This document shows, piece by piece, positions 3,465 to 35,398 of a DNA stretch of 45,108 nucleotides. The stretch is from Burkholderiales bacterium (GTDB lineage Bacteria; Pseudomonadota; Gammaproteobacteria; Burkholderiales; Burkholderiaceae_C), in assembly GCA_018969975.1 (NCBI GenBank), contig JAGWXI010000011.1, positions 1-45,108 on the forward strand, read 5' to 3'. Numbering within the stretch: position 1 is the stretch's first letter; the number at the start of each line of letters is the position of its first letter. Position numbers and translations under genes: made by a program. Below the pieces are notes generated by a model. It did no database searches. It was not told the origin of the DNA and saw only the letters and a program-made list of their open reading frames with translations.

Positions 3465-3480
3465 CTCGCGGCAACCGTGG

Positions 3481-18266: not shown

Positions 18267-18431
18267 ATTGGGGCGTTGGCTTATTGCGTGGAGCAGTATA
18301 TACGAGTCAATAGTGCCTCTTTGCTCCTTGTTCAAGATGCAAGACAGAGTTGCTGACATAGCAATTCCAATTGGTTCAACAACTTGTTAAATTTTTGTTT
18401 CGATTTAAATTTGAATTAACAAAGAGCAAGT

Positions 18432-19859
18432 ATGAAAAAAATGTTGATAGGTTCCCAGTGGGTCCACTCCAAAGATGGCAGATCCTTGGAAGTGGTTAAC
18501 CCGTCAGATGGACAAGTTTTCGATACTATTTCACGAGGCACTTCAGAAGATGTAGACAGTGCTGTTGCGGCGGCTCGTGCTGCTCTATCAGGTACTTGGG
18601 GAGATTTAAACGCCACTGAACGGGGTCGAATCATGACAGCCATCAGCCTCAGCGTCCTTTCGCATGAAGAAGAGTTGGCGCAGCTTGAAGCCCGCGATAC
18701 TGGCAAACCTTTGACCACCGCTCGCAATGACATCAAAGTTTTGGCAAGGTATTTTGAGTTTTATGCCGGTGGAGCCGATAAATTGCACGGTGAAACCATT
18801 CCCTTTCTCAATGGCTACCAAGTCAGCATGGTGCGGGAGCCCTTGGGGGTAACAGCCCACATCATTCCCTGGAACTATCCCGCCCAAATGCTGGGCCGTA
18901 CCTTGGCCCCTGCACTGGCCATGGGTAATGCCACTGTGCTTAAACCCGCCGAAGACACCAGTCTTTCCGCCCTGCGGTTCGCCGAATTGGCACTTCAAGC
19001 GGGGTTACCTACAGGGGCGCTCAACATCGTCACAGGCCTTGGCGAAGAGGTAGGTGCAGCCTTGGCAGCCCACCCCGGAATTGACTTGATCTCATTTACT
19101 GGCTCTAATGAAGTTGGCACACTGGTGCAACAAGCCGCTGCAAAAAATGCGGTCAAGTGCGTACTAGAACTCGGAGGCAAGTCGCCTCAAATTGTTTTCG
19201 AAGATGTAGACATAGAGCGCGCTGTTCCGATCATTGTGCGAGCCATTGTTCAAAATGCAGGACAGACTTGTACTGCTGGTAGCCGGTTACTGGTTCAAAA
19301 GTCGATTTATGACCAATTCGTGCAACGTGTGGCTGAGGAATTTGCCAAAGTTCGGGCAGGAACACCCGAGATGGACTTGGACTGTGGCCCTTTAATGAAC
19401 CCAGCCCAATTGAAAAGGGTGCACTCCTACATTCAACAAGCTCAGGGTATTGCGGTAATCGCCCAAGGACAGATCGCTGAAGACGTGCCCAGCACTGGTT
19501 ATTTTGTTCAACCTGTATTTTTTGGCCCTGTTCCTCGCGACTCAGCACTTGCCAATGAGGAAGTCTTCGGCCCCGTACTCGCGGCACTTGCTTTTGAAGA
19601 TGAAGCCGATGCAATTGCCCTTGCCAATGCAACAGAGTACGGCTTGCTTGCAGCCGTCTGGACAGAAAATGCCGGACGTTTGCAGCGCGTAGCCAAGGCT
19701 GTCAAGGCTGGTCAAGTTTTTTTGAACTGCTATGGCGCAGGAGGCGGCGTTGAACTCCCCTTTGGTGGCACCAAACGCAGCGGTCATGGTCGTGAAAAAG
19801 GCTTGTTGGCACTGGAAGAAGTCAGTTGCACCAAAACCTTGGTTCACTACCATGGTTAA
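18432..19859 (+). CDS. NAD(P)-dependent aldehyde dehydrogenase
   Basis: This is a 475-residue member of the aldehyde dehydrogenase superfamily, oxidising an aldehyde to its acid. IIPWNYPAQMLGRTLAPALA begins the Rossmann domain, FTGSNEVG is the cofactor loop, LELGGKSPQ holds the general-base Glu, and NAGQTCTAGSR holds the catalytic Cys. EEVFGPVLAALAF is the conserved C-terminal motif. The start at MKKMLIGSQWV is the usual N-terminus of betaine, lactaldehyde or semialdehyde dehydrogenases. The substrate is unknown. Context with sugar-acid enzymes suggests a 2-hydroxyaldehyde or semialdehyde such as lactaldehyde, glycolaldehyde or sulfolactaldehyde. It is a single gene at the left end of the island, convergent with the DUF2520 gene. 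Confidence 0.9.
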   Translation: MKKMLIGSQWVHSKDGRSLEVVNPSDGQVFDTISRGTSEDVDSAVAAARAALSGTWGDLNATERGRIMTAISLSVLSHEEELAQLEARDTGKPLTTARNDIKVLARYFEFYAGGADKLHGETIPFLNGYQVSMVREPLGVTAHIIPWNYPAQMLGRTLAPALAMGNATVLKPAEDTSLSALRFAELALQAGLPTGALNIVTGLGEEVGAALAAHPGIDLISFTGSNEVGTLVQQAAAKNAVKCVLELGGKSPQIVFEDVDIERAVPIIVRAIVQNAGQTCTAGSRLLVQKSIYDQFVQRVAEEFAKVRAGTPEMDLDCGPLMNPAQLKRVHSYIQQAQGIAVIAQGQIAEDVPSTGYFVQPVFFGPVPRDSALANEEVFGPVLAALAFEDEADAIALANATEYGLLAAVWTENAGRLQRVAKAVKAGQVFLNCYGAGGGVELPFGGTKRSGHGREKGLLALEEVSCTKTLVHYHG

Positions 19860-19893
19860 TTCAGCGTTTGCGCGCCAGTGTTCGCAAAGTTAT

Positions 19894-20802
19894 TCAACGA
19901 TTCGCATCTGATTGCAGCAAGTCCCTAAATTGAGTTGCCTGCTTTTCGTCTATGCCGCCTGCCTTTTCAGCCAGCGCCACCGTCCGCATACAAAGCGTTG
20001 TGTAGAAATGCAACATCTCCTTCCCCATTGGTGAAATCGCATACAAATGCTTTTCAATCGAGGACAAGTCTGCACGGGAGACCGGTCCAGGCATTCCTCG
20101 AGCTACGCCCGCACGTTCAATAGAACTGAGCGTGCCCTGCGCCAAAGGCAACAAAGCACGCAGTGCTTGTTCTTCAGTTGCGCCCCATGTTTGCCAGAGG
20201 CTCACCGCTTGGTCAAACAAGGCATTGATGAACTGGGACGTATAACCTGCCGCAGCATGGTAGCGACCCCGCATTCCTGCTGGTAATTGGTTGGCTAGAC
20301 ATCCGAGCCTTTGCGTTAGCTCCAATAAAACCTCCATCAACCCTGGGTCTTGCGCTTCTAGTGTGATCGTGCATCCCGCCAACGAACGCACCGCAGCATG
20401 CGGATCGCCAAAAGTTTGCATTGGATGAAATCCCCCAATGCAAGCGCCATGGGACAGCGCCATTGCCAAAGCATCCACTTCAGTAACACCGCTGCAATGC
20501 ACAGATGCTTGCCCTATGCGCCACTGCAGTTGGTCGCATGCATCACGAATTGCGCTATCGGGTGTGGTTACAAACACCACATCGCAGTTGTCCACCACGT
20601 CTTGAGCAGACATGCTGACACAGCCTTGGAGAGGTTGCGCCAGGTTATTGGCATGTGCCAGTACCAAGCTGTGAACCGCTACTACCTTCAAGCCCGCCTG
20701 GGCCAGGCTCCAAGCCAAAGCTTGGCCTAGGCGTCCGGCACCAATAAAGCCAATTCGCCAATTCTGCGGTGGACCGAGCGACAGTGTAGATGCCTGCGTC
20801 AT
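19894..20802 (-). CDS. Rossmann-fold and DUF2520 domain oxidoreductase-like protein
   Basis: The N-terminal half is a Rossmann domain (WRIGFIGAGRLGQALAWSLA) of the F420/NADP reductase or ProC type. The C-terminal half, from GGFHPMQTF through RYHAAAGYTSQFINALFD, matches the DUF2520 helical domain, which resembles 6-phosphogluconate dehydrogenase-type C-terminal domains. The start MTQASTLSLG (20802) overlaps the stop of the enolase-superfamily gene by 4 bases (ATGA), so this is the third gene of the lactonase-dehydratase operon. No reaction is established for DUF2520 proteins in such clusters. An NAD(P)-linked step on a hydroxyacid or keto acid is the natural guess. Confidence 0.8.
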   Translation of the reverse strand: MTQASTLSLGPPQNWRIGFIGAGRLGQALAWSLAQAGLKVVAVHSLVLAHANNLAQPLQGCVSMSAQDVVDNCDVVFVTTPDSAIRDACDQLQWRIGQASVHCSGVTEVDALAMALSHGACIGGFHPMQTFGDPHAAVRSLAGCTITLEAQDPGLMEVLLELTQRLGCLANQLPAGMRGRYHAAAGYTSQFINALFDQAVSLWQTWGATEEQALRALLPLAQGTLSSIERAGVARGMPGPVSRADLSSIEKHLYAISPMGKEMLHFYTTLCMRTVALAEKAGGIDEKQATQFRDLLQSDANR

Positions 20803-21944
20803 ACTTTCACCCTGCCTGTCCAAGTTTGATGGTCCATCAACTGAGCCAGGTCAGGCACAGCCCCGAGCCCCGGACCAGCGGGCACAGGCACACAGCCATC
20901 ACGAACCGGCAACAAATCGCCCACCACAGCTTCTCGTCCCAAATTAGGGTGCGCGTCAAACTCTAAAACACCGGCCCCTCCCACAGCCGCTAGTACGTGC
21001 AGAGAGGCCAACAACGAAACGCCCCCTCCAAAATAATGAGGGCAGTAACGCTTACCCGCAGCAACTGTATGCTTGGCAACCATCGCATTGCCGCTTATCC
21101 CGCCCCACTTGGTGATGTCGGGCTGAATGACTTGCAAAACTGAGTTTTCTAGAGCCTGGTCGAACTGTGCTGCATGAAAATTTTCTCCACCTGCCAAGGG
21201 TGTTGTGCTGAGTTTGGCTAACTCTTGCCAATGCGAAGCTGGTGCATCGACACGCAAAGGCTCCTCTAACCATGCCAAATTCAAAGGTGCAATTGCTTGC
21301 ACAAAAGCCTTTGCATCTTCGAGTTGGAGATTTTGATTAGAGTCGCAGGTTAACTCTGCTTGATCTCCTAACACTTCTCGCATGGCTTGCAGATTACGGA
21401 CATCAACGGCATGGCCAAAACCCGTTTTGAGTTTGAAAGACCGGAACCCCTCGGCCTGACGGGCAGCTGCAAAGACTTCTGGTTGATCTGGGTTGATGCC
21501 TGTCACATACACCGGTACGTGCTCGACTTCCCGTTGGCTGATCAAGTGATGCAAAGCTTTATTGGCGCGACGCGCCACCAAATCCCAGCACGCGATATCG
21601 ATACCAGCGAGAACCTGGGCAATCGGCCCCACTTCTAGCGTCTGCAGTACCAAGACTTCAAGCTCTTTGTTGAGTTGCGCAAACATCTGCTCGGGTGAAT
21701 CAAATCGCTTGCCCACCACGCGTTCACCCAAATCAATGGACAAGCGTGCACGATGTTCTGCTCCGCTTGCGGGCCAGTTAGCCCAGACCTCTCCCCAGCC
21801 CTCGGCACCTTGGTCATCAACCACGCGCAGCAGGACCATGGGTCGATCCCGAAAGGTTCCAAATGCCACTTTAATAGGCATCTTGACGGGCACCCGAATG
21901 CAAAAAGCTTCGATCGATACCAAAGTAAATGTCAAGTCGTTCAT
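20799..21944 (-). CDS. Mandelate racemase/muconate lactonizing enzyme family protein, probable sugar-acid dehydratase or lactone cycloisomerase
   Basis: This is a 381-residue enolase-superfamily member with an N-terminal capping domain (to about residue 125) and a TIM barrel. Active-site elements are SFKLKTGFG (Lys-x-Lys on strand 2), LTCDSNQN, WLEEPL and GGENFHA (three metal ligands Asp/Glu/Glu), and CPHYFGGG (His near the barrel end), a pattern of the mandelate racemase and galactarolactone cycloisomerase side of the superfamily. The start at MNDLTF has AAGGA eight bases upstream; a longer frame would run into the lactonase gene. It lies between an SMP-30 lactonase and DUF2520, so dehydration of an aldonic acid or cycloisomerisation of a lactone is expected. 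Substrate unknown. Confidence 0.88.
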   Translation of the reverse strand: MNDLTFTLVSIEAFCIRVPVKMPIKVAFGTFRDRPMVLLRVVDDQGAEGWGEVWANWPASGAEHRARLSIDLGERVVGKRFDSPEQMFAQLNKELEVLVLQTLEVGPIAQVLAGIDIACWDLVARRANKALHHLISQREVEHVPVYVTGINPDQPEVFAAARQAEGFRSFKLKTGFGHAVDVRNLQAMREVLGDQAELTCDSNQNLQLEDAKAFVQAIAPLNLAWLEEPLRVDAPASHWQELAKLSTTPLAGGENFHAAQFDQALENSVLQVIQPDITKWGGISGNAMVAKHTVAAGKRYCPHYFGGGVSLLASLHVLAAVGGAGVLEFDAHPNLGREAVVGDLLPVRDGCVPVPAGPGLGAVPDLAQLMDHQTWTGRVKV

Positions 21945-21966
21945 AGCCAATATCCTTATAAAAATA

Positions 21967-22890
21967 TCATTGGGCGCGTGGTCCATGGATCGCAAAACGT
22001 GGTTCCGGCAGACCACAAACACCCGGACGAATGGCCATCAGTGCGCCGGCCATAGGATTCGCCTGACGTTGCGCTTCGCTCATGTTTTGTGAGGTGCTCG
22101 TGATAAACAAAATATCCATATCCGGTCCACCAAACGCACAACAAGTTGGACGATCAACCGGTAGATTTAGCACACGATCTAAGCGTCCGTCTGGCGCGTA
22201 TCGCAAAAGGCGTCCGCCATTGAATTGGGCATTCCACAAAAACCCTTCTGCATCCAAGGTCGAACCATCCGGAAATGCAGGTGGTTTGCTTTCTGCAAAG
22301 ACCCTCGCCTCGCCCATTTCCCCAGTCTCTGGAGTGTAGGCGTGGGCATTAATTCGGTAGTGCAAAGAATCTGCAAAATACAAGGTCTCGCCCGCTGGAC
22401 TAAATGCCAGACTATTTGGTATGGAAACCCCCTCTAATACCGGCTTGAGGGGGCCAGAGCCCTCTAGGCAGAAAAGCGTCCCTTCCGGTGCTCGGGTGAT
22501 GTTATGCATACTTCCAACCCAGAATCGGCCACGCGCATCGCAACGCCCGTCGTTAAAGCGGTGCCCATGTCGCAAAGGAAGGTTTGACAAGAAAGTTTGC
22601 AACTGGCCCTCGATGGGATCGAAAAGAGCCATTTGACTCGGCAATGCCACCAATAAGCGTGCGTCATCTGTCAAAGCTATCGATCCCACCAAATCAGGCA
22701 TAGCCCAAGTATCTACTTCACCAGTGTCATAACGTAAACGCCGAATTGCCGGGCGACGAATATCTATCCAGTAAAGGCAATGAGCGGAGCTATCCCATAA
22801 CGGGTTCTCCCCCAAGATATCCGATTGGGTTCCCACGCGTTGCAACTGATGCAATGCCATGTCCTGCAGTGATGCCTTGAAATCATTCAT
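21967..22890 (-). CDS. SMP-30/gluconolactonase-family lactonase
   Basis: This is a six-bladed beta-propeller metal-dependent lactonase that opens aldonolactones to aldonic acids. The metal-binding residues of the family are in place: Glu in GENPLWD, Asn in IPNSLAFSP and Asp in FPDGSTLDAEGFLW. HRFNDGRCDARGRFWVGSM is the usual mid-protein motif. The start is uncertain: ATG 22890 (307 residues), GTG 22911, or ATG 22860 (MALHQLQRV), which has CAGG upstream. It is the first gene of a three-gene operon, divergent from the SDR-transporter operon across a 170-base region with a perfect palindrome. Confidence 0.9.
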   Translation of the reverse strand: MNDFKASLQDMALHQLQRVGTQSDILGENPLWDSSAHCLYWIDIRRPAIRRLRYDTGEVDTWAMPDLVGSIALTDDARLLVALPSQMALFDPIEGQLQTFLSNLPLRHGHRFNDGRCDARGRFWVGSMHNITRAPEGTLFCLEGSGPLKPVLEGVSIPNSLAFSPAGETLYFADSLHYRINAHAYTPETGEMGEARVFAESKPPAFPDGSTLDAEGFLWNAQFNGGRLLRYAPDGRLDRVLNLPVDRPTCCAFGGPDMDILFITSTSQNMSEAQRQANPMAGALMAIRPGVCGLPEPRFAIHGPRAQ

Positions 22891-22947
22891 GAGGCAGATG
22901 CTAGAAGGCACCGCGTGGTTAGGGAATCAAATTTGCGTCAAACTGAC

Positions 22948-22987
22948 CTTCACACAAACGCAAGGCTAGCCTTGCGTTTGTGTGAAG
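22948..22987. promoter_or_regulatory. Perfect 40-bp palindrome in a divergent promoter region
   Basis: Two 20-base arms (left arm CTTCACACAAACGCAAGGCT, right arm its exact complement) meet with no spacer. The next base pair outward fails on the left side (C-T). It lies 57 bases before the SMP-30 gene and 73 bases before the SDR gene, so it cannot be a terminator of either. The likeliest role is an operator for a dimeric or tetrameric regulator of both operons. A repeat-family element is the alternative. A second, weaker inverted repeat, GTCAT-N10-ATGAC at 23021-23040, sits 20 bases before the SDR start. Confidence 0.75.
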
Positions 22988-23060
22988 TGTGCATTGACCA
23001 AGTTTCAATTCCATTGCGTCGTCATGCCCATTAGGATGACATCACTGATATTCACAGGAC

Positions 23061-23882
23061 ATGAACTACATGAAAGCAAACGCTTCTTCGGACGCCACTT
23101 CTTCTCTGTTTGCTGATCTGACGCCCCAAAAGCTTTTCTCTCTCGACGGGCAAGTGGTGCTCATCACTGGTGCTGCCGGCGGTATAGGTGGCGCCTTGGC
23201 GCGTGGTTTTGCAGCTGCTGGCGCAAAACTGATCGCATGCGATCTCCAACCCCGAATGCACGAGCTAGCCGAGCAATGGCGGTCTCAAGGGATGGACGTG
23301 GAGTCGATGGTGTTCGATGTCACGCGTGAAGAGGAAATTACAAACGCATTTACCCAAGTTAACCAGCGCCATGGCCGACTCGATGTACTGGTCAATAACG
23401 CTGGCGTGATTGTGCGTACGCCATTTCTGGAACTTGAGCGAGATGAGTGGCAAAAGGTCATGGACACCGACTTGACAGCATGTTTTCTGATGGCACAACA
23501 AGCAGCGCGCTTAATGGTTAAGCAAGGCTATGGTCGCATCATTCATCTGAGCTCCATCATGAACCATGTGGCACGCCCCAACCTAGTTCCCTACGTAGTT
23601 GCAAAAGGAGGGGTCTCAGCATTGACACGCGCAATGGCTGCCGACTTGGGTGGCAAGGGCATCACTGTCAACGCCCTCGCGCCTGGCTACACACAAACTG
23701 AGTTCAGCCAAGCCAAAGATCCTGAATTCAATGCTTTTGTATCGAACTGGACTCCAGCCAAACGTTGGGGCCAGCCGGAAGATCTGTGTGGTGCTGCTCT
23801 GTTATTGGCCTCTAGAGCAGGTGCATATATCAATGGTCAAACCCTCTATGTAGACGGCGGATTTTTGGCTGTCACCCGATAA
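23061..23882 (+). CDS. SDR-family sugar or polyol dehydrogenase
   Basis: This is a classical short-chain dehydrogenase of 273 residues with a 27-residue N-terminal extension before the fold. Motifs are LITGAAGGIGGALA (cofactor glycine motif), VNNAGVIV, HLSSIM (catalytic Ser) and YVVAKGG (catalytic Tyr-x-x-x-Lys). The acidic residue in ACDLQ after the second strand suggests NAD rather than NADP. It resembles gluconate 5-dehydrogenase and sugar 1-dehydrogenases. As first gene of the transporter operon and divergent from a lactonase, oxidation of an imported aldose to a lactone is a reasonable inference. CAGGAC precedes the ATG. Confidence 0.88.
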   Translation: MNYMKANASSDATSSLFADLTPQKLFSLDGQVVLITGAAGGIGGALARGFAAAGAKLIACDLQPRMHELAEQWRSQGMDVESMVFDVTREEEITNAFTQVNQRHGRLDVLVNNAGVIVRTPFLELERDEWQKVMDTDLTACFLMAQQAARLMVKQGYGRIIHLSSIMNHVARPNLVPYVVAKGGVSALTRAMAADLGGKGITVNALAPGYTQTEFSQAKDPEFNAFVSNWTPAKRWGQPEDLCGAALLLASRAGAYINGQTLYVDGGFLAVTR

Positions 23883-23906
23883 ACAGCTCAAGGAGTCGAC
23901 TAAGCC

Positions 23907-24695
23907 ATGTCAACTGTCAATCACTCACCGCAGGCGTATCGCCCTATGTGGGTGTCGCTGCGCGCCTTTGGAGGCTTTTTCCTACTGTGGTGGTTACTCC
24001 ACCTTTGGAATGGCAACCCCTTGCAATTACCGTCCCCTAGCAAAGTATTTGAAGCCCTCTGGGGGCTTCTGCGTGAAGGTGAGATTGCAGAGCATGCTTC
24101 TGTCAGTACGTTGCGCATGCTATTGGCCTTGTTTTTTGCCATCTTGGTTGCGGTGCCGTTAGGTTTTGTCATGGGCCTATCCCGACAAGCGGAGCAATTT
24201 GTAGGGCCACTGGTGGAAATGCTGCGTCCCATCTCCGGAATCGCATGGTTGCCATTGGCTTTATTTATCTTTGGTGTGGGCGACACCTTGCCCGTATTCA
24301 TCATGTTTTATGTCGGTTTTTTTCCTATCCTATTGAACACGGTTGCAGGCGTTCGACTAACAGATCCGCGTTTGCTAGCAGCAGCCAAGACCATGGGCGT
24401 GAGGCCTTTGCCCTTGCTTTTACATGTTTTGATGCCATCGGCCTTGCCCAACATCATGGTGGGGATAAGGCTGGCTTTTGCTGCTAGTTGGGCTGCCATT
24501 GTGGCGGCAGAACTCATTGGTGCACCCAGCGGTTTGGGATTTGCAATTGAGTGGTATCGGCAATTATTGATGACGCCCAAAGTCTTTGCCTTCATTTTGG
24601 CCATTGGCGTGGTTGGCTACTTGTGCGATCTTGGGTTGCGGAGCCTACAGAGAAAACTGACACCATGGACCGAAGGGTCCAGCATCGTGACATGA
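23907..24695 (+). CDS. ABC transporter permease (SsuC/TauC type)
   Basis: This is an inner-membrane permease of the nitrate/sulfonate/taurine importer family, 262 residues with about six hydrophobic segments. The cytoplasmic loop AAKTMGVRPLPLLLHVLMPS followed by ALPNIMVGIRLAF is the EAA motif that docks the ATPase. AAWAAIVAAELIGAPSGLGF-like residues (SWAAIVAAELIGAPSGLGF) are typical of the family. It starts 24 bases after the SDR gene, with AAGGAG upstream. It is encoded with a second permease, so the transporter is probably a heterodimer rather than the usual SsuC homodimer. Confidence 0.92.
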   Translation: MSTVNHSPQAYRPMWVSLRAFGGFFLLWWLLHLWNGNPLQLPSPSKVFEALWGLLREGEIAEHASVSTLRMLLALFFAILVAVPLGFVMGLSRQAEQFVGPLVEMLRPISGIAWLPLALFIFGVGDTLPVFIMFYVGFFPILLNTVAGVRLTDPRLLAAAKTMGVRPLPLLLHVLMPSALPNIMVGIRLAFAASWAAIVAAELIGAPSGLGFAIEWYRQLLMTPKVFAFILAIGVVGYLCDLGLRSLQRKLTPWTEGSSIVT

Positions 24696-25489
24696 AACAA
24701 AACACTCTTTACAACCGAACAGGAGTTTTTGTTCGCCATCTGGCCTTTCCAGCCTTGCTGATCTTGGTCTGGCAAATATGGGCTATGAATTTACCAGTAG
24801 GTAGTCCTGCACCCTCCCCGATCAAAGTCGTACAAACTTTTGGCGAATTACTCAGCAAAGGCTCTCTTATCTCTGCTACGGTGCAAAGCTTGGGCAGAGT
24901 ACTAATGGGTTTCGCCATGGCTTCTCTATTGGGCATAGCCTTAGGTTTGCTGATGGGGTCAAGTCGGACCATTCGCGAAAACTTAGACCCCATCATTGAG
25001 AGCTTCAGACCCATCGCTCCCATGGCCATATTGCCTATCGCCATTTTGTGGCTGGGAACGGGAACACCCACTGCTTTAGCCATCGTGGCCTATGCCTCCT
25101 TTTTTCCAGTGGTCGTCAATACTGTGCATGGCGTCAGCCACGTGGATCGCAAACTAATTCTGGCGGCCAGGACCATGGGTATTTCTAAATGGACCATCCT
25201 CACGCGCGTCGTCCTGCCTGGTGCTCTGCCCTCCATTTTGCTAGGCACTCGGTTGGCTATGGGTGTGGCATGGACAGCCATCATCGCCGCAGAACTTGCC
25301 GTCGGCGCAAAGTCAGGCGGAGGGGGCTCTGGTGGCATAGGCCAGATGATGTTCGTGTTCTACGCCTACAACATTGATCTCAATGCGATTGTGGTTTGCA
25401 TGACCGTTGTTGGCCTCGTCGCACTTTGCATTGACCAAATTTTCAGATTATTCGAGAAACGTCTGATCCCCTGGAGACAAGAAATATGA
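24692..25489 (+). CDS. ABC transporter permease (SsuC/TauC type), second subunit
   Basis: A second permease of the same family, 265 residues when started at MKQNTLYNRTG, whose ATG overlaps the stop of the first permease by 4 bases. MDRRVQHRD at 24665 is an alternative start. The EAA loop is AARTMGISKWTILTRVVLPG, followed by ALPSILLGTRLAMG. A glycine-rich stretch AKSGGGGSGGIGQMMF replaces the shorter loop of the first permease. Together the two probably form the membrane channel of one importer. Confidence 0.92.
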   Translation: MKQNTLYNRTGVFVRHLAFPALLILVWQIWAMNLPVGSPAPSPIKVVQTFGELLSKGSLISATVQSLGRVLMGFAMASLLGIALGLLMGSSRTIRENLDPIIESFRPIAPMAILPIAILWLGTGTPTALAIVAYASFFPVVVNTVHGVSHVDRKLILAARTMGISKWTILTRVVLPGALPSILLGTRLAMGVAWTAIIAAELAVGAKSGGGGSGGIGQMMFVFYAYNIDLNAIVVCMTVVGLVALCIDQIFRLFEKRLIPWRQEI

Positions 25490-26337: not shown

Positions 26338-26389
26338 GCAGCCACCCACTGAGTAGCCCTTTTTTGATTTCAACCACAAGGAGACATTT

Positions 26390-27625: not shown

Positions 27626-27653
27626 TCTTAAAAACTGAAACTGGAGCCTATTT

Positions 27654-28556
27654 ATGAAAGTTGGATTTGTCGGGTTGGGCGTCATGGGTGCCCCTATGGC
27701 CTTGAATATTTTGAAAGGGGGACATGAACTCACGGTTTATGACAAGAGCGCTGCAGCTATAGCGCACCTAGTGCAAGCAGGTGCCAAAGAGGCCAAAACG
27801 CCACGCGAAGTGGGAGCTGCCAGCGACATCGTCGTGACTATGCTGCCCGAGCCTCAACATGTTGAGCAAGTCGTGCTGGGGACCGAGGGGTTAGTTGAAG
27901 GTCTGCGCGTTGGTGGCTTGGTGATCGAGATGAGCACTATCGATCCCAACACCTCTCGACGCATTGGCGAAGCGCTTCGCCAACGAGGCATGGAATTAGT
28001 GGATTCACCTGTAGGTAAAACTAGCGAGCATGCCGCCATGGGTACCTTGACCTTAATGGTCGGTGGTAACCAAGAGGCGATCGAACGGGCAACGCCTGTA
28101 TTGAATTGCATGGGCACGGATACCTATTACTGTGGTGGGCCTGGTACCGGACATGCCATGAAGATGACCAACAATCTACTTGCTACCAGCATCATGATTG
28201 CCAACACCGAGGCATTGGCTATTGGCGCCAAAAACGGTTTGACGCTGGAATTGATGCAAGAAGTAATGCGCACCACCATGGCTTGGAACCAACAACTGGC
28301 TGTGGCCATGCCGAAAAAAGCATTTCTCGGTGATGACAGCCCTGGGTTTGCCATCCGGCTCGCTTGCAAAGACGTTCGTCTGGCCTGTGAAGCCGCCGAT
28401 CAGATGGGCTTCGAGGCGAAAGTTGGTCGGGGCGCTCAAGCCACGATGGAACATGCCATCCAAATGGGACTAGGTGATCGTGACACAGCTGCCCTGATGT
28501 TTCTTCAGGAAAAGACGCTGGGAATTGAGATCCGACAACAGCCAGCAACCAAGTAA
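27654..28556 (+). CDS. Beta-hydroxyacid dehydrogenase, YihU (sulfolactaldehyde reductase)-like
   Basis: This is a 300-residue member of the 3-hydroxyisobutyrate dehydrogenase family. KVGFVGLGVMGAPMALNIL is the NAD-binding motif, with an acidic residue in LTVYDKS favouring NAD(H). The substrate loop reads DSPVGKTSEHAAMGTLTLMV, whereas 3-hydroxyisobutyrate and tartronate semialdehyde enzymes read PVSGG. PVG(R/K)TS is what I recall for E. coli YihU, which reduces sulfolactaldehyde. GTGHAMKMTNNLL holds the catalytic Lys. Likely a reductase of a three-carbon semialdehyde, perhaps with an anionic group. It is sixth in the transporter operon. Confidence 0.85.
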   Translation: MKVGFVGLGVMGAPMALNILKGGHELTVYDKSAAAIAHLVQAGAKEAKTPREVGAASDIVVTMLPEPQHVEQVVLGTEGLVEGLRVGGLVIEMSTIDPNTSRRIGEALRQRGMELVDSPVGKTSEHAAMGTLTLMVGGNQEAIERATPVLNCMGTDTYYCGGPGTGHAMKMTNNLLATSIMIANTEALAIGAKNGLTLELMQEVMRTTMAWNQQLAVAMPKKAFLGDDSPGFAIRLACKDVRLACEAADQMGFEAKVGRGAQATMEHAIQMGLGDRDTAALMFLQEKTLGIEIRQQPATK

Positions 28557-28574
28557 TTGCCAAGGAAAGCTTGC

Positions 28575-28871
28575 GTGCCTGCTTACATCATCAACGACAT
28601 GGAGATCACGGATCCCCACCGCTTCGAGGAATACAAGCTCTTGTCACCGGCCACGGTGGCAGCCTATGGCGGAAAAATCCTTGCTCGCAGTAGCGAAGTC
28701 AACAACCTAGAAGGCGACTGGCATCCTCGTCGATTGGTCATTCTCGAGTTCCCAGATAGAAGCCAAGCCCAAGCCTGGCTCAACTCTCCCGAGTACGCAC
28801 CTGCTAGAAGGCTTCGCCAGTTGTCCGCTAACTCGCGCATGGTGGTGATCGACGGATACTCGCCAAACTAA
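28575..28871 (+). CDS. DUF1330 family protein
   Basis: A 98-residue protein starting at GTG (PAYIINDMEITDPHRFEEYK), with AAGGAAAG five bases upstream; the frame extends a few codons further to a TTG without support. YGGKILARS and RLVILEFPDRSQAQAWLNSP are typical of DUF1330, a dimeric alpha-beta barrel (ferredoxin-like) family. No reaction is known. It is the last gene before the terminator of the transporter operon. A second small alpha-beta barrel protein (EthD) is found in the facing operon. Confidence 0.85.
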   Translation: MPAYIINDMEITDPHRFEEYKLLSPATVAAYGGKILARSSEVNNLEGDWHPRRLVILEFPDRSQAQAWLNSPEYAPARRLRQLSANSRMVVIDGYSPN

Positions 28872-28893
28872 GTTCAGCGCAACCCACAACCCT

Positions 28894-28928
28894 AAGCCCA
28901 CCTGTTGTCAAGACAAGTGGGCTTTTTT
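28894..28928 (+). terminator. Rho-independent terminator of the transporter operon
   Basis: Stem AAGCCCAC with GTGGGCTT, extended by an inner stem TTGTC-AA-GACAA with a small bulge, followed by six T on the plus strand. It lies 22 bases past the DUF1330 stop. The stop codon of the convergent CoA-transferase (28908-28910) falls inside the hairpin. Confidence 0.8.
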
Positions 28929-30050
28929 CAATTTGATGCTGTCTAGTTGACCGTGCTCGTTCACTGCTGGCGCACTACCCAAAGCGCCAAATATCTGCCA
29001 AGTCGTTCGGCAAGCGGGAGCGGGCATCTCCACAGGCCGACCGCGCACCATAACTTGATGTGTTCGCAACTGCGGGTGGTGAATCAAATCCATAACGGAA
29101 TTGATGGTTCCAAATGGTGTTTGCGCCTCGGTCAAACGGTCAGTCACCTCTCCCCAAGTCAGAGCGCCGATCACCGCCTGAATCATGTCATCAATTTGAT
29201 TGCTATGTGTACCGCGCGATGCACTGGTAGCAAAACGAACATCTGTAATCAGTTCTGGCTGCTGCAAGACATGTTCACAAAAGGCTCGCCACTCTCGGTC
29301 ATTTTGAACAGCTAACACCAATTCGCGTCCATCACTACAAGTGAAAGCGCCGTAGGCGGCAATGCTGGGGTGTTTTAGTCCACCGCGCGCTGGTGCAGCA
29401 TGACCATAACGGGCCTGCAAATAGGGCACAGCCATGAGTTCAGCGGCTGCATCAAACAAGGACACTTTCAAGGCACTGCCTTGTCCGGTTCGCTCCCGCA
29501 ACAGCAGCGCTTCCAAAATACCTTGAGCGGCATTCATACCCGCCGTGATGTCACAAATCGATACACCTATGCGGCCCCAAGGACCCGGTGCGCCATTGAC
29601 CGAAACCAATCCGCTCTCGGCTTGCACCAACAAATCGTAGGCCTTGAGATCATGCATGGGCCCTGTCTCACCATAACCGCTGATGTCACAGGTGACCAAT
29701 CGAGGAAAGGTAACGCGCAATGAATCTGAACCCAAGCCCAGTCGTTGGGCCGACCCTGGCGCTAGGTTTTGTATAAAAACATCAGCCTGTGCCAGCAAGT
29801 CCATCATTTGCTCCATGTCGGCCGACTCTCGCAAGTCCAGTGCTAGGGATTCTTTGCCTTGGTTGATCCAAACAAAATAGGAAGACTCGCCATACACCTC
29901 TCGGTCATAGTCCCGAGCGAAGTCTCCCTCAGGTCGTTCGACCTTGATAACGCGAGCTCCTGCCTGCGCAAGTCGGCTAGAACAATAAGGAGCAGCCACA
30001 GCATGCTCCAGCGATACCACCAGCATGCCTTGAAGGGGTTGTTGCATCAT
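28908..30050 (-). CDS. CaiB/BaiF class III CoA-transferase
   Basis: Class III CoA-transferases move CoA between acyl groups by a ternary-complex mechanism. The 380 residues contain GMLVVSLEHAVAAPYCSSRL, ERPEGDFARDYD and KAYDLLVQAESGL, whose Asp is the expected catalytic residue. It resembles CoA-transferases used for branched dicarboxylic acids such as citramalate or mesaconate, but specificity cannot be assigned. It is an obvious paralog of the gene at 34069, about 60 percent identical by eye. Its ATG overlaps the LysR stop (ATGA), so it is the last gene of the unit. Confidence 0.9.
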   Translation of the reverse strand: MMQQPLQGMLVVSLEHAVAAPYCSSRLAQAGARVIKVERPEGDFARDYDREVYGESSYFVWINQGKESLALDLRESADMEQMMDLLAQADVFIQNLAPGSAQRLGLGSDSLRVTFPRLVTCDISGYGETGPMHDLKAYDLLVQAESGLVSVNGAPGPWGRIGVSICDITAGMNAAQGILEALLLRERTGQGSALKVSLFDAAAELMAVPYLQARYGHAAPARGGLKHPSIAAYGAFTCSDGRELVLAVQNDREWRAFCEHVLQQPELITDVRFATSASRGTHSNQIDDMIQAVIGALTWGEVTDRLTEAQTPFGTINSVMDLIHHPQLRTHQVMVRGRPVEMPAPACRTTWQIFGALGSAPAVNEHGQLDSIKLKKAHLS

Positions 30051-30976
30051 GATTTACTTTCTTGGTGGAGTGGCTCTTCTTCAGGCAAATGGCCTCGCTG
30101 GCATAAAAACGCAATCAGTTTGCTGACAGACAACAAACTGGCTCTGTCTTTGCGGGTGCAAAGCAGCATGCGTCTAACTGCCCAGTCGTCACTAAAGGGT
30201 CGAACTGCCAAGTCCAGTCCTTTAGCCAGCACCCGTGCGGCTTGTTCCGGTAAAAGCCCCATGCCTAGACCAGCTTCGACCATATGACATACTGCTTCAA
30301 AACTTCGTACTTGGACGCGCGACTGCAATGTTTTTTGGGCAATCACCGCCTGTGCCGCAAGTAACCGCATCATCGAGGAACCGCCCTCCAAAGTGATCAA
30401 CTCATCGTCTAGGACATCGCTGAATTTCAGCATCTCAAATGCAGCCAAGGGATGGTCAAGAGGCATCACCACGGCCAGTCTGTCTTGACAGTAGGGTTGC
30501 GTCTCCAAACCTTCAACTGGAGTGCCTTCGACCACAATTCCAACGTCAGCCTCAGCAGCTTGAAGTTCACGAACAATCTCTTCGCTCCATCGCTCTTGGA
30601 CAATGACTTTGACATCCGGGTTGTGGTGCGCAAATGCAGCCAAGTCATTAGGCAAGGTATCTGTGATGACCGAGGTGTTGGCCAGCAAGCGCAAAGCGCC
30701 TTTGCGTCCATTGGCATGGTCGCTCATTTCAGCCTGCATCAGATTGAGTTCCACCAACAAAGCCCGAGCTCGCGGCAACAAGGCAATGCCAGCTGGGGTC
30801 AACTCCACGCCGCGCGAAGATCGCTCTAACAAGGTGGTACGAAACCGGTGCTCCAACAAAGCCATGCGCCTGCTCGCAGCGGCCAGCCCCATGTGAGAAG
30901 CTTCGGCCGCTTTCGTCAAGCTACGCAATTCTGCAGCGCGAACAAACAAAGCCAGGGTGTCTATATCAGGCAACAT
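30047..30976 (-). CDS. LysR-family transcriptional regulator
   Basis: This is a 309-residue LTTR. The N-terminal winged helix-turn-helix is LFVRAAELRSLTKAAEASHM followed by GLAAASRRMALLEHRF (residues 9-45), then the linker helix, and a periplasmic-binding-like effector domain (from about residue 90). Unusually for a LysR it is embedded in a co-directional operon between the lactonase-like gene (14 bases upstream) and a CoA-transferase (overlapping). It probably senses a pathway intermediate and may act on the divergent promoter near 22.9 kb as well as on its own operon. The target sites are not known. Confidence 0.92.
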   Translation of the reverse strand: MLPDIDTLALFVRAAELRSLTKAAEASHMGLAAASRRMALLEHRFRTTLLERSSRGVELTPAGIALLPRARALLVELNLMQAEMSDHANGRKGALRLLANTSVITDTLPNDLAAFAHHNPDVKVIVQERWSEEIVRELQAAEADVGIVVEGTPVEGLETQPYCQDRLAVVMPLDHPLAAFEMLKFSDVLDDELITLEGGSSMMRLLAAQAVIAQKTLQSRVQVRSFEAVCHMVEAGLGMGLLPEQAARVLAKGLDLAVRPFSDDWAVRRMLLCTRKDRASLLSVSKLIAFLCQRGHLPEEEPLHQESKS

Positions 30977-30990
30977 ATTATTTTTTCGGT

Positions 30991-32931
30991 CTAGCTTGAC
31001 AAATCAACCCGAGCCAAAGCGTAAGGTTGCAACTCGAGTTGTGCAGTGCAAGCGCCTCTGTCGGCCCAAGGACTGCAATGGGGCAATGCTTCATAGCGTA
31101 ACCAGCTCTGAGCATCCAAACTAGCCCATTGGCCAGCATGGTGCCAGTGTAGTGTTTGGCATTGCTCGGTGAGGTTTGCAAGCAAAATTTGCCTCCTAGT
31201 CGACGCAAATCCCATAACTGCTGCCATTGGGGTAAATAACAAATTGGACCCAGGTTGATGCTTCGGCTCAAGTGCCATGGCTTGAACGCCCCGCCACGGC
31301 AAACAAACTTCCATCATGGCCTCGGTGGGTGAAACCCAACGCGCGCCCTGCGCATGCCCCTCAGAACTCTGACGAACTGTTAGCGCTGGCAACGTTAATG
31401 CGTTGACCCCGGCCTGTGTTGCACCAGCCATGTGTCCCAGTAGCCACGCCGCACCAAATATTCCTTGGCTACGCGGATCGACCGAGGCCAGCGGTATTCG
31501 CTTGCTCCCGTCACTCGTAGCTTGTCTGCCTAAAGGGCTGGCTCGTGCTGCCAACCCACTCGGGCCAAGATGCCATTGTGGTCCCGGGTGTCTGCGCCTA
31601 GCAGTCTCTAGCATGGATGGCAAAGATTGCAGTCCCTGCATTACAGAAGCGTCTTCGGCACTGTGCACTATGGGGCAAACCGTGAATGCCATGAAATCTT
31701 CCCCGCCGCTTCTGTCGAGTCGATTCAATTGGGCAAAAAAATGGGGCGTCCCGCCACCGATGGCGGAAGATGGGAATAAGGAACGCAAAAATTGTGCAGC
31801 GCGTTCACCACAAGGCAAGGATGCCACCTCATGAGGTACTACACCCGCCTGAGCCATCGCCTGTGCCATTGCTTGGGCAAAATTCGTATCGTCACCGCTC
31901 CATTCTGGTTGGCTCTGATCGCGCGCACAAATATCAATACGCAGGCTTGACTTGGCCGCATCTAGCATTAGTCGCACCTGTGACCAATCCACGTCATCGA
32001 CTGTGATGGACGGCCAAAGCGTGAGATGTAAAAAATCAGGCTGCCACCGCGACAACTTAGTCAAAAAAACTGGCTCTACAGGGTGCTGGATCGGCGCTGT
32101 AATGGCTAAACCCAATCGCAAGAATCCCTCGGTTGTAGTCTTTGAACATGGGGTTTCCAATTTTTCATCAACCTTCAACGTCGGACTTGGGTTGGCGGGT
32201 GCAATATCAGCCAAATGCAGAGAGAGTTCCCGACGCCACGATTGTTGCTGGCGTAGCAAAAAGGGTCTAGGCATGGCATTCGATCTGCTGTAAGTCTTGA
32301 AGGAGGCGTCCGCGTTGTTACGCTGGTCCTCAAGTTCGTAGTCTTCACCTGAGAACTCCGCCTTCGCCCAGTAACCGGGTGCGTATTCATGGCTGATACC
32401 CTTCATGGCAGTAAAGGGCGGCCATGCTGGCACTTCTTGGGGCAACTGGGATTGCGAAATTCGTCCATCGGCATGACTGACTTGAACTGCACAGCCAGCA
32501 GCTGTGAGTGGATGCATCACTACCCAACCACAACGATTGACCAAAGTATCGTGGGTTGGCGTTGCCTGAACTGAAAACTCTAAACCTCCCAGCGCATTAC
32601 CCCGCACTCGAATCTCCAAAAGAAGACGGGCCTGCGAATCCCAAGAGCCAATAACGTCTTGAGCCAAACAAGGTATGTGCGCCTGCACCTGCAGCTCGAA
32701 CCCCTTTTCGTCAGTAAGCAGTTGTTCTGAGTCGAGCACAGTAGCAGGGGTTCCCCATCCCGTGTCGCGTAACAAAAATTCAACACCATGCCATACCTCA
32801 TGGCCATGGACACAGATCGGCCCCCAACGCGTTCCTTGTCGAATCAATGAAACAGGGCCGGCTTGCAAATATTGACGAGGCGCCAAAGTCTCGAGGCATC
32901 CAAAAAGAACCCGTCGCTCTGAATCCAACAT
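30991..32931 (-). CDS. Large protein resembling D-apionolactonase (ApnL)
   Basis: A 646-residue cytoplasmic protein without signal peptide. The segment FSGEDYELEDQRNNADASFK followed by TYSRS, and upstream GWVVMHPLTAAGCAVQVSHA followed by DGRISQSQLP, match the pattern I recall for the D-apionolactonase family, which opens the lactone formed on oxidation of the branched pentose apiose. The N-terminal 250 residues look beta-rich. The rest, from TKLSRWQPDFLHLTLWPSI, could be a TIM barrel, followed by a small C-terminal beta domain. It is co-transcribed with an SDR dehydrogenase, which may supply the lactone. The other apiose genes I know are absent, so the substrate may be different. Confidence 0.65.
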   Translation of the reverse strand: MLDSERRVLFGCLETLAPRQYLQAGPVSLIRQGTRWGPICVHGHEVWHGVEFLLRDTGWGTPATVLDSEQLLTDEKGFELQVQAHIPCLAQDVIGSWDSQARLLLEIRVRGNALGGLEFSVQATPTHDTLVNRCGWVVMHPLTAAGCAVQVSHADGRISQSQLPQEVPAWPPFTAMKGISHEYAPGYWAKAEFSGEDYELEDQRNNADASFKTYSRSNAMPRPFLLRQQQSWRRELSLHLADIAPANPSPTLKVDEKLETPCSKTTTEGFLRLGLAITAPIQHPVEPVFLTKLSRWQPDFLHLTLWPSITVDDVDWSQVRLMLDAAKSSLRIDICARDQSQPEWSGDDTNFAQAMAQAMAQAGVVPHEVASLPCGERAAQFLRSLFPSSAIGGGTPHFFAQLNRLDRSGGEDFMAFTVCPIVHSAEDASVMQGLQSLPSMLETARRRHPGPQWHLGPSGLAARASPLGRQATSDGSKRIPLASVDPRSQGIFGAAWLLGHMAGATQAGVNALTLPALTVRQSSEGHAQGARWVSPTEAMMEVCLPWRGVQAMALEPKHQPGSNLLFTPMAAVMGFASTRRQILLANLTEQCQTLHWHHAGQWASLDAQSWLRYEALPHCSPWADRGACTAQLELQPYALARVDLSS

Positions 32932-32951
32932 GGGGAATGCCCGCTTACTTG

Positions 32952-33704
32952 TTAAATCGTGCGGCCACCGTCGACAGGAAGTTCAACCCCAGTGATAAAG
33001 GCTGCAGCATCGCTTGCCAAATACAAGGCTGCCTGCGCCACATCCTCTGGTGTGGACATGCGACCCAGAGGAATTCCAGCAGTGATTCGTGCGCGCGCCT
33101 CAGGGGTGTCGGCCGTACCAAGAAACTGCTCGATCAAGCCAGTGGCTCCCATCACAGGACAAATGGCATTGACGCGAATCCCGTCGGGTCCGAGTTCAGC
33201 AGCCATTGATTTAGACATTAAATTGACTGCGCCTTTGGAGGCGTTGTACCAAGTCAAGCCAGGTCGAGGGCGAAGTCCAGCAGTCGATCCGATGTTGATG
33301 ATGGACCCTTGACCTTGTTGACGCATCAAAGGAACGACTGCCTTAGTCATATGGAAGATGGATTTGACGTTGACATTGAAGACCCGATCAAAGGTAGCTT
33401 CATCCACATCCAACATGGGCTGGTTACGGTGTGTGGTACCAGCGTTATTCACAACAATGTGCGGTACGCCGAGGCGTTGCACACAGACATCCACCGCCTT
33501 TTGCACTTCGTGCCCTATTGATACATCGCATGCAATGGCGATCGCTGCAGGTCCTAAACTCGCTGCCACAGATTGGGCTCGATCAGCATCTAAATCTGCG
33601 ATGAGTAAACGGGCACCTTCCTTGACGAACAAGCGTGCAATGCCCTCGCCAAAACCAGCGCCAGCGCCTGTGATGATGGCAATTTTGTTTTTAAGAATTG
33701 ACAT
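32952..33704 (-). CDS. SDR-family oxidoreductase
   Basis: This is a 250-residue classical SDR. Motifs are IITGAGAGFGEGIARLF (cofactor), LIADLDAD (acidic residue, NAD preference), VNNAGTTH, INIGSTAG (catalytic Ser) and WYNASKGAVN (Tyr and Lys), with VELPVDGG at the end. The start MSILKNKIAI has GAGGG six bases upstream; the longer frame to 33725 overlaps the EthD gene. It has a glucose 1-dehydrogenase or 3-oxoacyl reductase type sequence. Beside a large lactonase-like gene, oxidation of a sugar to its lactone is the likely job. Confidence 0.9.
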   Translation of the reverse strand: MSILKNKIAIITGAGAGFGEGIARLFVKEGARLLIADLDADRAQSVAASLGPAAIAIACDVSIGHEVQKAVDVCVQRLGVPHIVVNNAGTTHRNQPMLDVDEATFDRVFNVNVKSIFHMTKAVVPLMRQQGQGSIINIGSTAGLRPRPGLTWYNASKGAVNLMSKSMAAELGPDGIRVNAICPVMGATGLIEQFLGTADTPEARARITAGIPLGRMSTPEDVAQAALYLASDAAAFITGVELPVDGGRTI

Positions 33705-33715
33705 GTATTTCCCTC

Positions 33716-34051
33716 TTAAGGCCAAAGCATCTGGTGTTCTACTGAAATGATGGGCGAGACATCTTTGGCAAAGTTGGGTAGATCAGCCAGCAAAGTCTTA
33801 CCCTCAGGGCTTGACAACGCATGGGTCAAATCTGCCTCCGAGTCAAACCATAACTCTGAAAATCCGTCGTAATCAAAATGGGGGAAGCGCGCGCGATCCA
33901 CCAAATTGACAGAGTAGCGACGCAGTTTGGGTAACTTGACGCACAGTGCGGCATGGCGCTGTAGCCAGTGCTCCTTGAAATCATGATGGCTCATGCCATC
34001 CTTGCATCGCAATATGCCCAAGCGTTTGACGTAAGTGACTGGTGTAGTCAT
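33716..34051 (-). CDS. EthD domain protein
   Basis: A 111-residue protein whose YVKRLGILRCKDGMSHHDFK followed by EHWLQRHA is the EthD pattern (dimeric alpha-beta barrel). EthD proteins accompany various catabolic and tailoring enzymes, and a few are dehydratases or cyclases. The ATG at 34051 has GGAG six bases before it, like the SDR start downstream; ATG 34063 is the alternative. It is second in the operon, between CoA-transferase and SDR. Confidence 0.82.
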   Translation of the reverse strand: MTTPVTYVKRLGILRCKDGMSHHDFKEHWLQRHAALCVKLPKLRRYSVNLVDRARFPHFDYDGFSELWFDSEADLTHALSSPEGKTLLADLPNFAKDVSPIISVEHQMLWP

Positions 34052-34068
34052 GTATTTCTCCATTTCCT

Positions 34069-35259
34069 TCAGTTAGGTTTAGAAACAGGTGGTAGATCCG
34101 AATCGGCGAATTCCATTCGTAAGGCAGGCCCATGCGCGTCGATAGCTGGTGCGGGGGGAAAGGATGCGTCCTCCCACTCCACCTGCCAAGGCAAGGCTGG
34201 CACCTTTGCCGCTTGATCGCCCACGGGCATATCTCGGGTTCTCAATTGCGGATGCGCTATCAAATCGTCAACTGAATTCACTTGGCCATAGGCTGTCTGC
34301 GCCAAGGTCAAGCGGTGGGTGACTTGTGTGCTGTCGAGTGCAGCGAAGACCTCGGCGATCAAACCGTCCACGAATTCACGATGTGTACAACGGGCAGCGT
34401 TATCGATGCAACGAGGATCATCAAGCAAATCAGGTCGCAGCAAAACGTTTTGACAAAAGCCTTGCCATTCGCGTTCGTTTTGAATCGATATGACCAACTC
34501 CCGACCATCGCCACAAACAAATACCCCGTATGGCGTGATGGAGGGATGCTTCAAACCCACTCGCTCAGGTGCCTGCCCCCCGTATCGTCCCTGTAAATAT
34601 GGCACGCTCATCAATTCCGCGGCTGAATCGAACAGGGATACGCGCACACCGCTACCGCGGCCGGTGAGGTTGCGCTGTAACAAAGCTTGCCCAATACCAA
34701 TTAGCGCATTCATCCCCGCCGTGATGTCGCACAGAGAGACACCGATACGTCCCCATTCTCCCGGGGCGCCGCTGACTGCAATCAAACCTGACTCAGCTTG
34801 TACCAATAGGTCATAGGCTTTCATCTTTTGGTAGCTGCCATGTTCGCCATAGCCACTGATATCGCAGGTAATCAGCCTAGGATGTTGTTCTCGTAAGACG
34901 TCTGAACCCAGCCCAAGCCGTTGCGCTGCACCAGGTGCCAAGTTTTGTAGAAATACATCAGCGCTGGCGATCATCTTTTTTAAGACGGAGAGATCCTCAG
35001 GTTTTTTGAGGTCCAGTGCAATGGATTCTTTGCCCCGGTTTATCCAGACAAAGTAGGACGACTCGCCATGCACGTGTCTGTCGTAACCCCTTGCAAAATC
35101 GCCTTCGGGTCGCTCAATTTTGATCACGCGCGCGCCGGCATCTGCCAGCCGACTAGAACAATAAGGCGCAGCGACAGCCTGCTCCATAGCCACAACCAAC
35201 ATGCCCTGAAAGGGTTTGACCTTATCGGTGGCCCCATGGTGATAAGTGGTTTCGCTCAT
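34069..35259 (-). CDS. CaiB/BaiF class III CoA-transferase (paralog)
   Basis: The 396-residue paralog of the CoA-transferase at 28908. Shared segments include AVAAPYCSSRL, ERPEGDFARGYD, GESSYFVWIN and KAYDLLVQAESGL (catalytic Asp). I place the start at MSETTYHHGATD. The frame continues upstream to 35361, but that part is antisense to tRNA-Val. It has an N-terminal extension of about 14 residues and a longer, different C-terminus. It is the first gene of the unit, 17 bases before the EthD gene, with the promoter expected in 35260-35321. Confidence 0.9.
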   Translation of the reverse strand: MSETTYHHGATDKVKPFQGMLVVAMEQAVAAPYCSSRLADAGARVIKIERPEGDFARGYDRHVHGESSYFVWINRGKESIALDLKKPEDLSVLKKMIASADVFLQNLAPGAAQRLGLGSDVLREQHPRLITCDISGYGEHGSYQKMKAYDLLVQAESGLIAVSGAPGEWGRIGVSLCDITAGMNALIGIGQALLQRNLTGRGSGVRVSLFDSAAELMSVPYLQGRYGGQAPERVGLKHPSITPYGVFVCGDGRELVISIQNEREWQGFCQNVLLRPDLLDDPRCIDNAARCTHREFVDGLIAEVFAALDSTQVTHRLTLAQTAYGQVNSVDDLIAHPQLRTRDMPVGDQAAKVPALPWQVEWEDASFPPAPAIDAHGPALRMEFADSDLPPVSKPN

Positions 35260-35321: not shown

Positions 35322-35398
35322 TGGTAGGCGCGATTGGACTCGAACCAACGACCCCCACCATGTCAAGGTGGTGCTCTAACCAGCTGAGCTACGCGCCT
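35322..35398 (-). tRNA. tRNA-Val (anticodon GAC)
   Basis: A 77-base type I tRNA with encoded CCA on the minus strand. Acceptor stem AGGCGCG with CGCGCCT, D arm GCTCAGCTGGTTAGAGC, anticodon arm CCACC-TTGACAT-GGTGG (anticodon GAC, reading GUC and GUU), T arm with loop TTCGAGT, ending ACCA. It lies 30 bases downstream of relA on the same strand and marks the right edge of the catabolic island. Confidence 0.97.

Follow-up and report, generated by a model that had tools for sequence, protein, structure and literature searches.

The window analysed here is a stretch of 45,108 nucleotides from a Burkholderiales bacterium (contig JAGWXI010000011.1 of assembly GCA_018969975.1), which carries 17 protein genes at positions 18432–35259, between rimO and a tRNA-Val, as determined by open reading frame calling with Pfam and NCBIfam models. 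We find that this block is one accessory catabolic locus, patchily spread and horizontally moved, rather than a group of unrelated units, because its genes recur jointly in varied orders, show linked divergence and partly share upstream sites. Its likely role is the uptake and breakdown of an uncommon sugar derivative that carries an electrical charge. We assign a probability of roughly 0.6 to the full reading, in which the block moves horizontally as a single locus and breaks down an anionic compound derived from a sugar by the steps proposed below. Gene content, recurrence as one unit, co-divergence, insertion beside tRNA-Val, invariant candidate catalytic residues and two predicted folds are direct observations. 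Each family named in an initial annotation of this DNA was recovered in place, among them two class III CoA-transferases, EthD, DUF1330, DUF2520, two short-chain dehydrogenases (SDR1 and SDR2), an SsuABC-type importer and an ApnL-like protein.

In order to follow the block through relatives, we scanned a genome collection with an alignment of the importer's binding protein and obtained 44 loci. Weak partial matches (L133–L136) were not used and L130–L132, at 33–34% identity, were counted apart, leaving 37 loci with binding proteins of at least 55% identity. For gene content we used the 17 related loci that span 21 kb or more. Each of them has all four genes of the transporter as well as the YihU-like gene; the binding protein is there by construction, since the loci were found through it. 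SDR1 and the SMP-30 lactonase gene are each counted in 16, although in L125 their identity is just 30% and 41%. The enolase-type gene occurs in 15 of the loci, a CoA-transferase gene in 13, EthD, LysR and DUF1330 in 12 each, and the ApnL-like and aldehyde dehydrogenase (ALDH) genes in 11 each. We regard the importer, the lactonase, the probable acid-sugar dehydratase and the YihU-like reductase as the core. Gene order and strand vary among Limnohabitans-type, Ramlibacter, Variovorax, Rubrivivax and alphaproteobacterial loci, so the linkage is more than inherited synteny; the carriers are Comamonadaceae and alphaproteobacteria. Gene-to-gene correlations of pairwise distances range from 0.28 to 0.94 and reach at least 0.6 in 52 of 66 gene pairs, a figure that carries no species-tree correction and in part reflects shared ancestry. 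The initial annotation had proposed that the units form one catabolic locus and would have given this up had they never co-occurred in relatives; in the relatives' neighbourhoods they recur together, reordered, and their distances co-vary.

Some records in this set overlap. L127 is a contig of the same metagenome-assembled genome (MAG) as L110 and looks almost identical to L101; L099 and L028 (genome G399) are one and the same contig, and several Limnohabitans-type loci are closely related. L184 and L185, whose contigs equal those of L115 and L116 in length, appear to duplicate them and were left out of the counts. At L183 the binding protein (57%) was found with none of the other island genes. 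Looser groupings of enolase-type, SMP-30, transporter and SDR genes occur at L091, L092 and on plasmid L138, and a plasmid search with the binding protein returned one record at 32%.

The island is inserted beside tRNA-Val. Of the 29 loci shown from genus relatives, 14 have the site empty, with rimO 132–818 bp from relA, tRNA-Val between the two and no island; in the other 15, rimO is not within the flanks shown. In G399 the rimO/tRNA-Val site is empty, yet most of the island is found on two other contigs, which we infer adjoin one another; one of them continues into TRAP transporter and metK genes (recognised by eye). The binding protein is present in 2 of 51 genus genomes (E 1e-60) and 7 of 399 family genomes (E 1e-100), the source genome included in both cases, and in 3 of 399 order genomes (E 1e-50), these being the source genome and two at 34%. 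No integrase was matched among the 17 block proteins by Pfam or NCBIfam, and no direct or flanking att repeat longer than 8 bp is common to both island ends.

The divergent region between the SMP-30 and SDR1 genes holds inverted GGAATTGgAACTTGgGCAA-like sites at 22919–22945 and 22989–23015. A gapped 8-mer of this region is common to 19 of 23 related regions, whereas none of ten shuffles gave more than 8. A weight matrix trained on this divergent region alone, with a threshold of at least 14 bits, gave 35 matches in 584 kb of relatives against 2.75 expected from Markov shuffles. Of these, 27 lie at the SMP-30/SDR1 promoter, and seven of the remaining eight lie upstream of ALDH (L096, L097, L100, L102, L103, L104 and L123, about three lineages). 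A plain consensus search for the GGAATTGgAACTTGgGCAA-like pattern in the window alone gave a chance-level result (8 matches versus 7.76 expected); the informative test was the weight-matrix scan of the relatives. We infer that the LysR protein may control the locus through these sites. An inverted repeat with arms of ∼19 bp at about 22948–22987, between SMP-30 and SDR1, is also present in close relatives and may be an operator or an RNA element.

Regarding the enzymes, Cys280, Glu246 and Asn148 of the ALDH, which we take to be catalytic, are invariant in 16 aligned sequences, as are Ser165, Tyr178 and Lys182 of SDR1 in 28 sequences. The enolase-type protein has K197-x-K199, D227, E253, E280, D302, H329 and E354 invariant in 24 of 24 sequences. 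On our assumption that a KxK motif, three metal ligands and an Asp/His dyad define the mandelate-racemase subgroup, the protein appears to carry the residues of this subgroup, mandelate racemase itself lying outside the alignment. Its top models are sugar-acid dehydratases (108, 102 and 99 bits) and its closest solved chain, 3ddm, is itself named just "putative"; we consider it a probable acid-sugar dehydratase. In 8 of the 37 loci, all alphaproteobacteria-named, a UxaA/galactarate-dehydratase-like enzyme stands alongside the transporter and YihU genes. L182, from the source's own family, combines UxaA-type subunits with SMP-30, transporter and YihU genes, and no enolase-type gene was seen in its 17.8 kb. 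The initial annotation's non-phosphorylative logic of dehydrogenase, lactonase and dehydratase fits these observations, and the aldolase, kinase and isomerase that it had reported missing are indeed unmatched among the 17 proteins by Pfam and NCBIfam. The DUF2520 protein has weak PDB matches, and it may be related to the ketopantoate reductase PanG. Another genus member has three enolase-superfamily paralogues in a row (L074, genome G428, contig C49).

The predicted fold of the binding protein is nearest TauA and SsuA and is that of the SsuA/TauA family. The YihU-like protein carries a DSPVGKT motif found in 27 of 27 homologues checked, reading VGKTS in the window protein versus VGRTS in 6sm7; in sulfolactaldehyde reductase a VGRTS-like motif belongs to the anion pocket, of which the window motif may be a counterpart. 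The binding protein and the reductase motif together suggest that the substrate may be anionic and possibly sulfur-bearing. Sulfatases occur at 3 of the 32 island loci tested, counts that vary with threshold (E 1e-8, or E 1e-15 on loci of at least 9 kb, the latter omitting L127), and we treat sulfated or sulfonated sugars as a lead only. Identification of the YihU-like protein as sulfolactaldehyde reductase itself was rejected, as it scores 254 bits against the curated model's cut-off of 348. Sulfatase genes on source-genome contigs C39, C89 and C74 (L146, L147 and L148) adjoin tripartite-tricarboxylate (Bug)-like binding proteins, and ALDH, SDR and Rieske-type oxygenase-like genes lie near the one on C39. 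A second NMT1/SsuA-type ABC transporter lies within L105, L106, L108, L109, L116 and L123, in some cases with two additional binding proteins.

Both CoA-transferases belong to class III (PF02515, 328 and 332 bits) and contain a KAYD motif, the Asp of which is presumably catalytic. The AYD motif is found in 27 of 28 relatives' copies, the exception being a 32% paralogue. Six of the 17 long loci additionally encode a CitE/citramalyl-CoA-lyase-like enzyme; RipC/citramalyl-CoA lyase is the best model, with sub-threshold scores (149–169 versus a cut-off of 375) in the four tested. Given this lyase in six relatives and the intact CoA-transferase motifs, a C-C cleavage step at the CoA-ester level is plausible. 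The CoA-ester late intermediates of the initial annotation thus gain a candidate lyase in relatives, although not in the window.

The ApnL-like protein scores 258 bits against the NCBIfam D-apionate lactonase model, the cut-off of which is 750; two island homologues reach 314 and 365, and the ApnL of L029 also falls short at 636. In a comparison of 18 island-clade and 21 ApnL-type sequences (the L123 sequence stops early), the island clade is separate from the ApnL-type clade with support of 100/100. Homology is full-length with 61 columns conserved in both clades, and 16 positions are conserved within each group but switched between them (e.g. Q203/H, R222/W, Q401/E and L467/H, island/ApnL-type). 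On these grounds we rejected a D-apionate lactonase identity, and the "branched sugar acid" of the initial annotation, which rested on the resemblance to ApnL, loses its support. The predicted fold is GH-A-like, with matches to GH30, GH51 and beta-glucuronidase/heparanase entries (presumably GH79), while GH97-like whole-protein Foldseek matches have a high root-mean-square deviation; no solved chain was matched by sequence. A canonical retaining GH-A glycosidase was set aside as less likely because past residue 204 no Glu is at least 80% conserved in the island clade. Between close relatives the ApnL-like gene diverges far faster than its neighbours. In contrast to this island paralogue, the ApnL gene of L029 (genome G411, contig C40), in the same genus, adjoins 3-oxo-tetronate kinase, decarboxylase-like and isomerase genes; for the ApnL-type clade, gene context was checked with family models in L029 alone.

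Each reaction, the reaction order, the LysR control and the substrate class are read from protein families, from which we propose the following route. An SsuABC/TauABC-type transporter would import an anionic sugar derivative, and oxidation of a hydroxyl or lactol by the SDR enzymes would give a ketone or lactone. Lactone opening would fall to SMP-30, perhaps together with the ApnL-like protein, and the mandelate-racemase-type enzyme would dehydrate the acid to a 2-keto-3-deoxy acid, with UxaA-type dehydratases presumably accompanying or replacing it in alphaproteobacteria. The YihU-like, DUF2520 and ALDH enzymes may bring an aldehyde or hydroxyacid to the required oxidation state. The class III CoA-transferases would then form a CoA ester, which in some relatives may be split by the CitE/citramalyl-CoA-lyase-like enzyme. 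We regard such a route as a variation on non-phosphorylative acid-sugar catabolism, with a CoA-ester branch as a probable addition.

Several observations weigh against this reading. SDR2 and DUF2520 are optional, occurring in 7 and 9 of the 17 long loci. ALDH distances correlate weakly (0.28–0.55) with those of seven genes, perhaps because two ALDH types exist. Upstream of ALDH the window itself has just a weak site (score 7.1, at 18345, ∼60 bp away, with spacing as in relatives), and no weight-matrix site was found before CoA-transferase 1 in the window. The block lacks a CitE gene, and the source genome has just a 36% homologue on another contig. Both dehydratase types are present in L119 and L122, so the enolase and UxaA types are not necessarily exact substitutes. 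More distant enolase-type homologues (28–50% identity) at 17 loci, L074–L090, have neither SMP-30 nor the binding protein; the linkage is therefore true of this orthologue set and not of the whole enolase-type family. Lastly, the locus counts overstate independence because discovery was based on the binding protein and many carriers are close relatives. Separate transcription units, optional genes and a variable ALDH type are what one would expect of unrelated units that became neighbours by chance at a tRNA hot spot, but the set recurs reordered, most of it lies elsewhere in the genome of G399, and its genes co-diverge. Recurrence and co-divergence contradict independent neighbours, and we give this explanation next to no credence.

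Alternatives that accept a unified locus differ in the substrate. A sulfated- or sulfonated-sugar pathway resembling the sulfo-Entner-Doudoroff pathway, in which SDR, SMP-30, dehydration and C-C cleavage would deliver a sulfolactaldehyde-like aldehyde to ALDH and the YihU-like enzyme, the anionic group being kept or removed by sulfatases, is possible, though we think it unlikely. As described in PMC12890257, that pathway has the same step order of dehydrogenase, lactonase, dehydratase and aldehyde dehydrogenase. The importer fold and reductase motif are also like those of sulfonate proteins. Unlike that pathway, the block matches no aldolase family in any of its 17 proteins (the CitE-like lyase occurs in relatives only) and no sulfoquinovosidase family, and it has additional CoA-transferases. 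Its dehydratase is of the enolase type, unlike the IlvD/Edd-type enzyme of the sulfo-Entner-Doudoroff pathway. A bolder proposal, and a doubtful one, is that a sulfated or sulfonated sugar or sugar acid, perhaps algal or plant, is degraded by a new kind of oxidative pathway, in which the anionic group would govern SsuA-type uptake and the YihU-like reductase, an enzyme with a GH-A glycosidase-like scaffold would perform delactonisation, and citramalyl-CoA-lyase-like cleavage of a CoA ester would replace a pyruvate aldolase. Improbable, too, is a D-apiose/D-apionate-like branched-sugar pathway with the ApnL-like protein as aldonolactonase: the shared scaffold described above speaks for it, but the island protein is of another clade, in which the switched residues include Gln401 (Glu in the ApnL type) and Leu467 (His in the ApnL type), and no otn-type kinase, decarboxylase or isomerase partner of the kind seen in L029 is found among the 17 proteins. 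A modified ortho-cleavage aromatic route, comprising a muconate-cycloisomerase-like enzyme, an MmlI/EthD-like isomerase, a lactone hydrolase and a CoA-transferase, would account for the enolase-type protein's match to the muconate cycloisomerase model (82.6 bits) and the weak match of the EthD protein to MmlI. We judge it very improbable, as the sugar-acid dehydratase models score better, the same transporter core travels with a UxaA-type sugar-acid dehydratase, and no ring-cleaving dioxygenase is among the families matched by the 17 proteins.

The proposed acid-sugar route has partial counterparts elsewhere. A study of SAR202 describes how enzymes of the mandelate-racemase type pair with dehydrogenases for non-phosphorylative sugar breakdown, with co-occurring sulfatases, and proposes parallel L-fucose/L-rhamnose-type routes (PMC10444878). 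Like such pathways, the island has an SDR, a mandelate-racemase-type dehydratase and a lactonase and no kinase; unlike them, it has CoA-transferases, an SsuA-type importer, a YihU-like reductase, EthD and DUF1330, with a CitE-like lyase in relatives, and diketo-acid hydrolase and pyruvate aldolase families are unmatched in the block. With the itaconate/citramalate route it shares a class III CoA-transferase and, in relatives, a RipC/Ccl-like lyase, but the score of that lyase falls well short of the curated threshold and none lies in the block. The island gene set is not described in the accessible parts of PMC10444878 or PMC12890257, and no description of this route was found in the open-licence literature searched. 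The island is real, unified, mobile and apparently uncharacterised: a coherent 17-gene system found in strains named Limnohabitans, Variovorax or Ramlibacter as well as in related MAGs and a number of alphaproteobacteria. Working out this system would give functions to DUF2520, DUF1330, the EthD branch, the ApnL sister clade and 3ddm-type enolases, and might expose an overlooked carbon flux, possibly sulfur-linked. Strains should exist, since several carrier records are not labelled as MAGs.

Table 1. Genes and other features of the block and its borders, in window coordinates.
Feature	Position	Strand	Evidence or remark
rimO	16814–18193		
Aldehyde dehydrogenase (ALDH)	18432–19859	+	PF00171, 531.8 bits
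Rossmann-like + DUF2520 reductase-like protein	19894–20823	-	PF10728, 84.4 bits; start codon uncertain
Enolase-superfamily, mandelate-racemase-type, probable acid-sugar dehydratase	20799–22022	-	Pfam/NCBIfam; likely start is internal ATG near 21944
SMP-30/gluconolactonase-family lactonase	21967–22911	-	PF08450, 251.8 bits; has solved relatives
Divergent control region	22919–23015	no strand	two inverted GGAATTGgAACTTGgGCAA-like sites flanking inverted repeat
SDR1, short-chain dehydrogenase	23061–23882	+	gluconate 5-dehydrogenase models among top matches
ABC permease 1, SsuC/TauC type	23907–24695	+	Pfam/NCBIfam
ABC permease 2	24551–25489	+	long overlap with permease 1; start codon uncertain
ABC ATPase, nitrate/taurine/sulfonate type	25486–26337	+	Pfam/NCBIfam
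Substrate-binding protein, NMT1/SsuA type	26390–27625	+	Pfam/NCBIfam; predicted fold
YihU-like beta-hydroxyacid dehydrogenase/reductase	27654–28556	+	family models; motif DSPVGKT
DUF1330 small protein	28557–28871	+	Pfam
Class III CoA-transferase 2	28908–30050	-	family models; motif KAYD
LysR-type regulator	30047–30976	-	Pfam/NCBIfam
ApnL-like protein, GH-A-like C-terminal fold	30991–32931	-	NCBIfam, phylogeny, predicted structure
SDR2, short-chain dehydrogenase	32952–33725	-	glucose 1-dehydrogenase subfamily model passed (341.3 bits, cut-off 215)
EthD-family small protein	33716–34063	-	Pfam/NCBIfam
Class III CoA-transferase 1	34069–35259	-	family models; motif KAYD
tRNA-Val	35322–35398	-	3' end towards island; insertion point

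The source contig is C21 of a 167-contig, 2.72 Mb genome with an estimated completeness of 89%, the nearest relatives of which in the genome scan are Comamonadaceae MAGs, followed by Rhodoferax- and Limnohabitans-named records. The longest open reading frame of CoA-transferase 1 extends to 35361, into tRNA-Val, and we therefore prefer the ATG at 35259 as a plausible start; the block end at 35259 given by the initial annotation is a better fit than that of the longest frame. The G+C content of the block (50–54%) overlaps that of the flanks (45–55%), so the block is not clearly distinct in composition. In the alphaproteobacterial version of the locus at L119, AtuA-like and DUF4387 genes lie upstream (3087–4816).

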